From assembly GCA_028276405.1 (NCBI GenBank), contig JAPYWJ010000004.1, positions 1-64,000 of the forward strand: a stretch of 64,000 nt of DNA. The letters run 5' to 3'. A model generated the notes under the pieces. It did no database searches and had not been told where the DNA came from. It saw only the letters and a list, made by a program, of their open reading frames with translations. A program made the position numbers and the translations under genes. Source of the DNA: Hydrogenobacter sp. GTDB taxonomy: Bacteria; Aquificota; Aquificia; Aquificales; Aquificaceae. Of the stretch, positions 2,935 through 51,517 are shown piece by piece; positions within the stretch are counted from its first letter, which is position 1; each line of letters opens with the position of its first letter.

Positions 2935-3667
2935 TTATCCACTCCTCAAAGCTCATGCCTTTTTTTATGCTCTCCAAGATGTGTTTTTCTGTAGGTGTAA
3001 GATCTTGTGGTATAAGGTCTGGTCTGTACTTTAAAGTCCTTTCTATGGCATGCCAGAGTTTCCACATTTCTATAAGTTTGTGATTTCCAGATAGCAAAAC
3101 TTCCGGAACCTTCATACCTTCGTACTCGGGGGGTCTTGTGTAAACAGGGTACCCCATCCACCTTCTGAAAGAATCAGACAAAAGACTTTCTGGTTCTGTA
3201 AGCACGCCCGGTAGTAGTCTTACAATACCTTCAAGCAGTGCGAGAGCAAATACTTCTCCCCCGGAAAGCACAAAATCTCCCAAGGAAAGCTCTTCGTCCG
3301 CAAGAGTGCTGATACGTTCATCCAAACCTTCGTACCTACCGCATATTACCGCTATACTATCTTTTTTGGATAGCCTCTCAAAATCCTTTTGGATAAGTCT
3401 TTTACCCCAAGGTTGGGGTATTATGGTATAAGGCTTGCCGTATTTTTGGACCACCTCCTTATAGGCACTAAACACGGGTTCTGGCTTTATCACCATACCC
3501 GGAAGACCACCGTAAGCAGCGTCGTCTACCTTTCCCTTGTCTGCATACCGCCTTATATCTATCACTCTCAGATCCACAAGGGACTTCTTTATAGCTTGTT
3601 TGACTGTGCCATACTGAGCGTAGCATTCTATTATTTGAGGGAAGATGGTAAGCATGAAAAATTTCAT
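2924..3667 (-). CDS. trmD: tRNA (guanine-37-N1)-methyltransferase
   Basis: SPOUT-family methyltransferase that makes m1G37 next to the anticodon and so prevents +1 frameshifting. The 247 residues fit the family. Visible signatures are the start MKFFMLTIFPQ, the central DDAAYGGLPGMV region, CGRYEGLDERI, and the trefoil-knot SAM site around LSLGDFVLSGGE. The start overlaps the stop of the upstream recombinase gene by 4 bp (ATGA), so the two are translationally coupled. It is not in the usual rpsP-rimM-trmD-rplS operon. Confidence 0.96.
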   Translation of the reverse strand: MKFFMLTIFPQIIECYAQYGTVKQAIKKSLVDLRVIDIRRYADKGKVDDAAYGGLPGMVIKPEPVFSAYKEVVQKYGKPYTIIPQPWGKRLIQKDFERLSKKDSIAVICGRYEGLDERISTLADEELSLGDFVLSGGEVFALALLEGIVRLLPGVLTEPESLLSDSFRRWMGYPVYTRPPEYEGMKVPEVLLSGNHKLIEMWKLWHAIERTLKYRPDLIPQDLTPTEKHILESIKKGMSFEEWITKH

Positions 3668-4530
3668 TTTAAAAAGCTTTCTACTAACTGTCTTGCCCTT
3701 TCTTGACTAAACTTGTAGTATATGTCTATGGTAGTTCTTATGTGAGAGTGTCCAGCAAACTCTTTTACCACTTCCGCAGGAAAACCACTATTTACTAAAT
3801 TTGTTATGTAAGTATGCCTAAAGCTATGCACAGAAAAAGGGATGCCCAATCTGTGAGATAATCGATTAGTATATACTTGAAGAGAGCCCCTTTTGACATT
3901 AAAGTTTTCTTCATAAGACTCTATCCATTCAAGCAGTTTACGTGTGGCTTTGTATGTATCTTCTTTTGTACTTCCTAAGACAGGGACGAGCCTTTCCTTT
4001 CTACCCTTGGTAATATCTGCAGAAAGCCTTATCCATAAAAGACCGCTTTTATCTTGATAGAAACTGCTTTTCCTAAGGCCAAGATATTCAGAAAGCCTCA
4101 CACCACTGTGAAGAAGGAGCATATATACTTTCTCGTACTTGGTTCCGCGTACCTCCGATAGAATCCTTTTGGTTTCTTCCTTTGACAAGGCTTTTGGATA
4201 CCTATCTGCTATATTCCTTCCTATCTCTTCTCTCACTTCGTCTATAACCGTTTCTATCTGTGAGTATCTCTCCTTGTCTATGTATCCTCTTCTAAAGGCA
4301 AACTTATAAAAGTGCTTTATGGCAGATAAGTGAGTAAGTATGGAAGAAGTGTTAAGCAAGGAAGCGTCTACATAACTGTATATACTTTTTGGGTCTACCT
4401 GGGTAAAGTCTTGGCTTTGTATGTGTTTTGCAAAGGACTGAAAACTCCTTATGTATGTAATAACGGTTCTTGGACTTTTTGTTCTTTCTAGACTATTTTT
4501 CCAAAGCCTTAGGAGATGATCTCTGTCCAT
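3664..4530 (-). CDS. xer: Tyrosine recombinase (XerC/XerD/XerH-like)
   Basis: Site-specific tyrosine recombinase, 288 residues, the size of chromosomal Xer proteins. The N-terminal SAM-like DNA-binding domain spans about 1-95. The catalytic set is complete: R145 (HSGVRLSEY), K175 (TKGRK), H235-x-x-R238 (HSFRH), H261 (GHSHIRTT) and Tyr 271 or 272 (DIYYKFS). No phage or integron genes surround it and it is coupled to trmD, so a housekeeping role in chromosome dimer resolution is more likely than a phage integrase. It is the only Xer-type gene in the window; a dif-like site is at 50843-50880. Confidence 0.88.
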   Translation of the reverse strand: MDRDHLLRLWKNSLERTKSPRTVITYIRSFQSFAKHIQSQDFTQVDPKSIYSYVDASLLNTSSILTHLSAIKHFYKFAFRRGYIDKERYSQIETVIDEVREEIGRNIADRYPKALSKEETKRILSEVRGTKYEKVYMLLLHSGVRLSEYLGLRKSSFYQDKSGLLWIRLSADITKGRKERLVPVLGSTKEDTYKATRKLLEWIESYEENFNVKRGSLQVYTNRLSHRLGIPFSVHSFRHTYITNLVNSGFPAEVVKEFAGHSHIRTTIDIYYKFSQERARQLVESFLK

Positions 4531-7632: not shown

Positions 7633-8127
7633 TTAAAAACCCAATTCTTTAAGAAGATGGGGGTTATATCCTTCTATCACCTTGTAGTTTCTCAGGACTA
7701 TGTTATATGGAGTTGACTGGACACCAAGCTTTTGGGCTATCTTTATGTGTTCGTAAACCAGAGGGCACTCTTTTACCTTGGGAGGTTCGCCGTCAAACTT
7801 ACCAGAAAGGACATCATCAAGGGCTTTTAGCCTGTTTTTACTGCATGCTATGTAAAAAGCTTTAGGATAGCTCTCGGGAAACCTTTTAAAAGGTAGCAAA
7901 AATACATAAACTTTCAACTTGTGAAGATAAGGTCTTAGTTCTTTCCACTCTTGCCTACAGTGGGGACAGTCTGGATTTATAAAGGTAATAAGCTTATTGT
8001 CTCCCTTTCCTACAATAACAGCTTTTTTCAGTGGTATTCCCTTTACTTGCTCTTTAACAAACTCAGAGTACAGGTCTTCAGAAAACACGGTTCCTAAAAG
8101 TAAAACTATCAAGCTGAGGATGAGCAT
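7633..8127 (-). CDS. DsbC/DsbG-like periplasmic thiol:disulfide protein
   Basis: Thioredoxin-fold protein with a CPHC active site in FINPDCPHCRQEW and the cis-proline loop GVQSTPYNIV, as in DsbC/DsbG isomerases. The start is set at ATG 8127 because it gives a compact signal peptide (MLILSLIVLLLGTVFSE); the longer frame from 8175 adds an unlikely 16-residue N-terminus. That leaves 164 residues with no DsbC dimerisation domain visible beyond a short N-terminal segment. Two further cysteines flank the helical insert. A TATAGT box lies about 20 bp upstream. It probably oxidises or isomerises disulfides in exported proteins. Confidence 0.8.
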   Translation of the reverse strand: MLILSLIVLLLGTVFSEDLYSEFVKEQVKGIPLKKAVIVGKGDNKLITFINPDCPHCRQEWKELRPYLHKLKVYVFLLPFKRFPESYPKAFYIACSKNRLKALDDVLSGKFDGEPPKVKECPLVYEHIKIAQKLGVQSTPYNIVLRNYKVIEGYNPHLLKELGF

Positions 8128-50486: not shown

Positions 50487-50735
50487 CCTGGTCACCAAAA
50501 GTATACAAAACTGCACTCATTTTGTGCAGTCGTCCCCTGACCAGGAGGAGGGACTAACCTACGAGCCACCCTTACCCAATCCCTAGGGAAGGCTCCGGCT
50601 GTGGAGAAAACTTGCCAGCTTTTTCCCAGGAGCTAATCTCCTGCCCCTCACCCGTTCCATCTCTCGGGGTGTGGCCGGCGTAGGGGTTACGGGCTCTTGG
50701 GTAGCTGGCTCACTGTCTCCACTGTCATACAAAAT
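50487..50735 (-). ncRNA. GC-rich structured element A with a TnpB-like tail (possible guide-RNA relic)
   Basis: A GC-rich island in AT-rich DNA, read on the minus strand. Its 5' part (50735-50583) also reads as a protein tail from GDSEPATQEP to HSRSLP and a stop, like the disordered C-terminus of TnpB proteins whose guide RNA overlaps the gene end. Downstream come GGTTAGTCCC...GGGGAC, a closed hairpin, and a second nested structure: CCTGGTCA (50487-50494) pairs with TGACCAGG (50538-50545) around CTGCAC/GTGCAG. No TnpB body is present. A different structured RNA is possible; tmRNA and SRP RNA motifs were not found. Confidence 0.4.
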
Positions 50736-50842
50736 TATTTACCTTTCTACAGAATTCCGCAACTGTTTCGCACCTCCTCCCTCTCAAAATACTCCTTTAA
50801 AATCCACTTGTTTTTTTAATAACTTGATCCTAACATGTCCAG

Positions 50843-50880
50843 AAATATGTTAACATAATCGCTCTTATGTTAACATATTT
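50843..50880. other. dif-like Xer recombination site (candidate)
   Basis: Perfect 16-bp inverted repeat: AAATATGTTAACATAA (50843-50858), centre TCGCTC (50859-50864), TTATGTTAACATATTT (50865-50880). The six-base centre and the inner arm TTATGTTAA reproduce the dif layout (11-6-11) and its XerD-side half-site exactly; the XerC side ends CATAA as in the consensus. Perfect symmetry suits a single-recombinase system. The 50737-50842 stretch before it shows nothing else. A regulator operator is the main alternative. Confidence 0.5.
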
Positions 50881-50885
50881 AAGGA

Positions 50886-51192
50886 TTACTTCCAAAACTC
50901 CCACCACCTCCTAACAAGTTTAGCTCTAAGCTCTGCTATAAGCTCCTCCTTAGCGTGTAGCTGTTCTTGAAGCTCTCCCAATTTATACATGGCTTGTTTT
51001 AGCTGTTCTTGGACCTTGTAGTATTCGGAAAAGGACACTATTGCCCTGCTCGCTGATCTGTTTTTCTTTCTTCAACTTTATGTAGAAGTTGTGAATAGCA
51101 CGTGATATAACTTCTGTCTCTGACACACCAAGAATTTGGGATATTTCGCTTAGCTCCCTTATCGTCTCGTAAGAAAACCCGAAGTTCTTACT
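50886..51192 (-). pseudogene. Decayed ribbon-helix-helix/coiled-coil protein gene
   Basis: Two minus-strand frames join into one protein. The first reads YETIRELSEISQILGVSETEV then ISRAIHNFYIKLKKEK, the helix part of a CopG-like ribbon-helix-helix domain. The second reads RAIVSFSEYYKVQEQLKQAMYK then a heptad-rich helix and ends RRWWEFWK. The switch falls in a run of five A (51061-51065 as T on the plus strand), and the first frame has a stop just upstream, where the IS terminus at 51205 begins. So it is both N-truncated and frameshifted, unless the homopolymer is a sequencing error or a slippage site. Confidence 0.55.
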
Positions 51193-51204
51193 CTATCTAT
51201 CTGA

Positions 51205-51435
51205 GGCTGTTCTAAAAATCCCATCTCGGGACCGTCCCCCCAGCGGATAAGGGAACTAACCCTTTCCTCACCCTATCCCACGCTCCCTTGCGGGAGGGGA
51301 AGAGTCTTTTCCTCCCAAGAACAGGGAAAAGGAGGGCTACCTTCAGAACCTGCTGGGCGGTGGCAAGGATTGTCCAATCCTTCCCGTCTTCAGGGTTCCT
51401 TCCATTGGTCCCCCAATGGGCACCTAGCAAGCTCT
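51205..51435 (-). ncRNA. GC-rich structured element B, abutting a third IS terminus
   Basis: A second GC-rich island on the minus strand. It ends like element A with GGTTAGTTCCC...GGGGGAC forming the terminal hairpin, preceded by a CTCCCGCAAGGGAG hairpin. A 72-codon frame (51212-51430) runs through it but looks like chance or another TnpB-type tail. Its 3' edge merges into GGATTTTTAGAACAGCC (51205-51221), the same terminus as the two IS relics, with no partner terminus found. Elements A and B are about 0.5 kb apart, same strand. Between 51436 and 51517 nothing is recognisable. Confidence 0.35.
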
Positions 51436-51517
51436 AAAAGCTTCTCATAAGAAAAATTATATCACTTCTCAGGAACTTTCAATAGGTTTGTATTTTTGGA
51501 ACACCTTCCTATCTATC

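Follow-up and report, generated by a model that had tools for sequence, protein, structure and literature searches.

Site-specific recombination by Xer proteins at dif is described in several forms. The classical XerCD/dif system of E. coli has two recombinases and FtsK, and its 28-bp site is single copy, is intergenic and contains the XerD half-site core TTATGTTAA (PMC3025954). Among single-recombinase systems, streptococcal XerS is genetically linked in many members to its site difSL, which is atypical in its 31-bp length and is FtsK-dependent (PMC5357621). The epsilonproteobacterial XerH/difH site has nearly identical arms with a one-base insertion in one of them, may adjoin the recombinase gene, and is described as FtsK-dependent and as unassociated with specific genes (PMC2731167, PMC5241119). 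Archaeal XerA/dif of Thermococcales consists of a single recombinase and a 28-bp site of 11-6-11 layout with nearly identical arms, has no FtsK, and sometimes has xer adjoining dif; the dif of Pyrococcus abyssi was recombined in vitro by XerA (PMC2958812). For the control of Xer recombination without FtsK in archaea, a partner binding dif-flanking sequence has been suggested, as has HerA as an analogue of FtsK (PMC2958812). XerCD was a requirement of a large published survey of dif, in which no Aquificae are listed, and we found no paper on an Aquificae dif in the open-access full-text literature.

A stretch of 64,000 nucleotides from Hydrogenobacter sp. (Aquificaceae; contig JAPYWJ010000004.1, positions 1 to 64,000), hereafter the window, was analysed for such a site. 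Judged from sequence comparison, a 28-bp element in the window is very probably the chromosomal dif of a single-recombinase Xer system lacking FtsK. This reading extends the known kinds of dif to a family for which no published dif was found. The element has in common with archaeal XerA/dif the single recombinase, the layout, the nearly identical arms, the missing FtsK and the occasional adjacency to xer, and 17 of the 28 positions of P. abyssi dif are equal to the Aquificaceae site. It differs in its bacterial host, in a Xer protein that falls under the NCBIfam XerA cut-off and in a coiled-coil gene that usually lies beside dif. The latter also sets it apart from difH, with which it has the single Xer, the arms and the possible adjacency to the recombinase gene in common; the likeness to difSL lies in the single, often linked recombinase. 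Length, half-site core, single copy and intergenic position are those of E. coli dif, but one recombinase is present here and no FtsK. A deep-branching bacterial family would thus show the archaea-like, FtsK-less plan with a single recombinase.

Direct reading of positions 50843-50880 gave AAATATGTTAACATAA-TCGCTC-TTATGTTAACATATTT, exactly the perfect 16-bp inverted repeat with a six-base centre that the initial annotation of the window had reported, and the palindrome TATGTTAACATA is present inside each arm. A scan of the window for inverted repeats with spacers of 0-20 bases found arms of at most 9 bp elsewhere, the site's own offsets aside. Hairpin folding is possible, as for any inverted repeat, and a transcription terminator or a chance AT-rich palindrome might be considered; however, the stem is AT-rich, the expectation at the same base composition is about 2.5e-5 perfect 16-bp arm pairs around a 6-base centre per window, and the primary sequence is kept across genera with differing neighbours, which leaves this explanation scarcely conceivable. 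At the site, Rfam gave no RNA family (one weak, meaningless match). Consistent with a dif site, the inner 24-mer TTAACATAA-N6-TTATGTTAA has one exact copy in the 1.36-Mb Hydrogenobacter genome, the runner-up having two mismatches, and its backward control pattern gave no match in that genome. The initial annotation had identified the inner half-site with the XerD half of the dif consensus, as the E. coli core confirms, and had named several genomic copies as a ground for refutation; a single one was found. The site lies in a gap of about 1 kb (50487-51487) between an 82-aa open reading frame after rsmH and a gene for a hemerythrin-domain protein. Features of the locus are listed in Table 1.

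Table 1. Coordinates of the candidate dif, its surroundings and the xer gene in the 64-kb window.
Feature	Position	Strand	Description	Evidence
xer	3664..4530	-	288 aa; R145, K175, H235-x-x-R238, H261, Y271 or Y272 conserved	sole tyrosine recombinase of the genome
Extra sequence between upstream 82-aa gene and candidate dif	50487..50846	.	~360 bp versus ~40 bp in G002	part 76% like a stretch on contig C33
Full perfect inverted repeat	50843..50880	.	16-bp arms	outer 5 bp per side unconserved among relatives
Candidate dif core	50848..50875	.	11-bp arm TGTTAACATAA, centre TCGCTC, 11-bp arm TTATGTTAACA	genome-unique exact copy; 28 conserved columns in 29 sites
Frameshifted ribbon-helix-helix (RHH) and coiled-coil relic	50886..51195	-	tail RRWWEFWK; 3' end towards dif	independent profile match 50904-51065, E=2.8e-6
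Dispersed repeat at 5' end of relic	51197..51490	.	~294 bp	92-94% copies on contigs C39 and C9, and more diverged copies

Comparative analysis of 60 relatives and the Hydrogenobacter genome, with two mismatches at most, revealed motif matches in 42 of 61 genomes against eight for the backward control. By our count a bona fide site is present in 28 of the 37 family genomes, once in each single-chromosome assembly and in every such assembly; the nine family genomes in which it was not found are all drafts of about 10 or more contigs. G001 and G025 yielded no site and also no neighbour gene of the type described below. The sites read with their flanks have the consensus TGTTAAYATAA-TNGCNA-TTATRTTAACA, and conservation over the 28 columns of the 29 aligned sites ends sharply at the 28-bp edges. 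Conservation of the inner columns is partly built in, since these served as the search pattern. Columns outside the pattern (the outer TG/CA and the centre T-N-G-C-N-A) are conserved as well, and the six flanking bases on each side are nearly random and carry almost no information; the unit is therefore 28 bp arranged 11-6-11, which is the layout of dif. Conservation in relatives, proposed beforehand as a check, is thus seen as one motif per genome across the family. In three genomes of a sister family (G051, G058 and G060) the motif reads TTACCATAA-N6-TTATGGTAA, with both arms altered alike and a Xer just 26-29% identical, which suggests that dif is symmetric there too and that its arm sequence has shifted.

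The gene at 3664 had been taken for a complete Xer recombinase, and our analysis found it to be both complete and Xer-type. Its product is the single PF00589 match of the genome in a profile search and scores above the cut-off for PF00589 and for PF02899 (SAM-like N-terminal domain). Relatives share the catalytic R-K-H-R-H-Y residues, which line up with those of XerA and XerD. Tyrosine recombinases, XerA included, match the AlphaFold2 model of the protein (mean pLDDT 80); the closest sequence match in the PDB is the XerA entry 4a8e, and the gene is 89% identical to xer of a Hydrogenobacter MAG. The equivalog cut-offs of NCBIfam for XerC, XerD, XerS and XerA were not reached (best score 89.8 bits against the 220-335 required), and the protein therefore represents a single-Xer type of its own. 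One genomic recombinase and near-identical arms in 29 sites fit a single protein on both arms, as had been supposed from the arms of the window's own site. In nine relatives (G003, G004, G006, G008, G012, G014, G021, G027 and G033) xer is separated from the site by about 0.7 kb, with the same spacing in the Aquificaceae MAGs SKYG33 and SKYG16, possibly the same genomes as some of those counted; in other relatives it is distant. Facultative linkage of recombinase and site is reported for XerS/difSL, XerH/difH and some archaeal XerA/dif systems.

Profile searches further indicate that the Aquificaceae Xer/dif system apparently runs without canonical FtsK. The FtsK gamma domain (PF09397) had no match in the Hydrogenobacter genome, against matches in 8 of 14 control genomes. 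FtsK_SpoIIIE matches occurred in 12 family genomes, all of them weak, and the one examined (in G004) belongs to an ATPase in which a phospholipase-D domain is joined to a HerA-type domain. This protein of 624 amino acids (L072, 649-2523) is a possible FtsK/HerA-like DNA motor, and most of the family genomes tested have a match to it with an open frame of similar length.

By analogy with the Xer/dif family, the single Xer would bind both near-identical arms, the two dif sites of a chromosome dimer would come together, and exchange of strands over the six-base centre would resolve the dimer into monomers, presumably without canonical FtsK as in archaeal XerA/dif. Most relatives encode, roughly 100 bp away, a DNA-binding coiled-coil protein whose probable targets are the boxes that separate dif from the gene itself, and which may, speculatively, serve as an accessory or positioning factor; in the Hydrogenobacter genome this gene has decayed.

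The neighbour gene is the surprising part of the locus. In 24 of the 28 site-bearing genomes a gene for a DNA-binding domain, either helix-turn-helix (HTH) or RHH, followed by a coiled coil starts about 85-115 bp from the site. In 17 genomes it encodes a protein of about 200 amino acids, modelled by AlphaFold2 with a mean pLDDT of 93, in which a MerR-like HTH is joined to some 150 residues of coiled coil, and this gene remains at dif even where xer sits elsewhere. Seven genomes of two genera (g6 and g8) have an RHH and a coiled coil instead, mostly with a KRRWFF-like tail; the best match of the RHH coiled-coil profile adjoins dif in all seven. Between dif and the start codon, the HTH group has 39 TGTCA/TGACA boxes versus 3.0 expected from mononucleotide shuffling, some of them within TTGACA promoter elements. 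In the five g6 genomes GTAATAC lies 14 and 79-80 bases away from the inner 24-mer; G009, G017, G024 and G030 each have a single exact array of the two boxes with a spacing of 65 bases, invariably beside dif. Both kinds of box are presumed binding sites of the neighbour protein.

The proximity of this gene, held even when xer is elsewhere, would suit an operator through which the coiled-coil protein represses its own gene, the palindrome then being no recombination site. However, one and the same 28-mer is found beside genes for two unrelated DNA-binding domains, or beside neither, which disfavours an operator, and the HTH and RHH genes each have other boxes (TGTCA/TGACA or GTAATAC) closer to the promoter. 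Two Aquifex-type genomes (G007 and G029) retain the site with neither gene beside it, and in G000 and G002 it persists although the gene beside it has become a pseudogene whose 3' end points to it. Genes adjoining the site vary between genera, and it therefore does not behave as the operator of a fixed gene, the finding that the initial annotation had named as adverse to dif. Taken with the exact 11-6-11 geometry and the single copy, these observations make an operator improbable and favour dif.

Neither neighbour protein had a sequence family match. Foldseek searches with the HTH coiled-coil model gave weak MerR-like matches only (CadR, RacA and BldC), none with E<0.001, and no family is therefore claimed for it. 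An N-terminal DNA-binding domain followed by a long coiled coil is also the plan of the HTH and coiled-coil segregation proteins RocS, pSK1 Par and KfrA (PMC11500499, PMC7821693). The short W/F-rich tail of the dif-side RHH protein is a further point of likeness; the neighbour proteins show no sequence family match to them and membership is not claimed. That the coiled-coil protein replaces FtsK in its hypothetical accessory or positioning role, with HTH and RHH heads both recruited to the same job, is a tentative suggestion that we consider rather unlikely. The Aquificaceae nevertheless offer a concrete candidate partner gene with presumed boxes, so that FtsK-less control becomes directly testable.

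A position at the terminus, which a skew switch at this spot had been expected to support, is partly supported. As the Hydrogenobacter genome is a draft of 55 contigs, relatives were used: in stretches sampled from five of them, skew at third codon positions was computed with a correction for gene strand. Skew is strong in G013 and turns from plus to minus between the sample of 361-381 kb and that of 520-540 kb (fitting 400-520 kb); the site of this genome, at 361 kb of 1,560 kb, is about 20-160 kb off the switch. In G005 agreement is weak: the GC3 switch at 840-960 kb includes the site (916 kb of 1,368 kb), and the TA signal favours 640-660 kb instead. The sampled stretches of G004, G012 and G019 gave no significant skew, being within permutation noise or too weak, and GC skew of the 64-kb window alone showed nothing clear. 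The distance from dnaA to dif ranges from 7 kb to nearly opposite, and dnaA was dropped as an origin marker. It lies 7 kb from the site in G009 and 28 kb in G027, which counts against dif unless dnaA is off the origin there; in both genomes dnaA is probably away from the replication origin.

The surrounding relics had been interpreted as insertions collecting near the terminus. The insertions are real: the sister genome G002 has the same order and a decayed relic, but neither of the two additional stretches that stand on either side of the dif-relic block of the window; the terminus itself stands as described above. The dispersed repeat at 51197-51490 had no Rfam match. Orientation of the window's relic is opposite to that of intact cases, and an intact orthologue (51% identity over 45 residues) is present beside a second dif-like palindrome in another genome, G032 (L016, contig C73, 969-1524). 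The putative dif has thus outlived its neighbour gene in this lineage, and the neighbour can therefore be dispensed with, at least in this case.

The insertions and the gene relic beside the site could also point to an attachment site or remnant of a mobile element, served by Xer or by an integrase of the element itself, in place of a host dif. To these may be added the intact RHH gene of G032, which stands by restriction-type genes together with the second dif-like palindrome, and a phage-like contig with the exact core. Yet the site is single copy at differing loci in all single-chromosome family genomes, has no flanking duplicate and is conserved as a single copy in strains without insertions at the site, e.g. 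G002 and G007, and the Hydrogenobacter genome has no integrase besides xer. A mobile element is thus highly improbable, and the host dif is preferred. Viral contigs with the core palindrome were rejected: most of them either share a conserved flank of another kind or come from unrelated hosts, and their palindromes probably arose by chance. The phage-like contig (L144, IMGVR_UViG_3300021973_000005; terminase, portal, 25% GC) has the 28-bp core at 8092-8119 with the centre TTGCCA, as in G004, G007 and G019; it is a possible Xer-using phage, and a chance match is also possible. The palindrome of G032 reads TGTTAACATAA-TCCAAT-TTATGTTAATG; its neighbours are a helicase/restriction-like gene and a GNAT gene, and the region may be a mobile element that uses dif, or else a contaminant in the draft.
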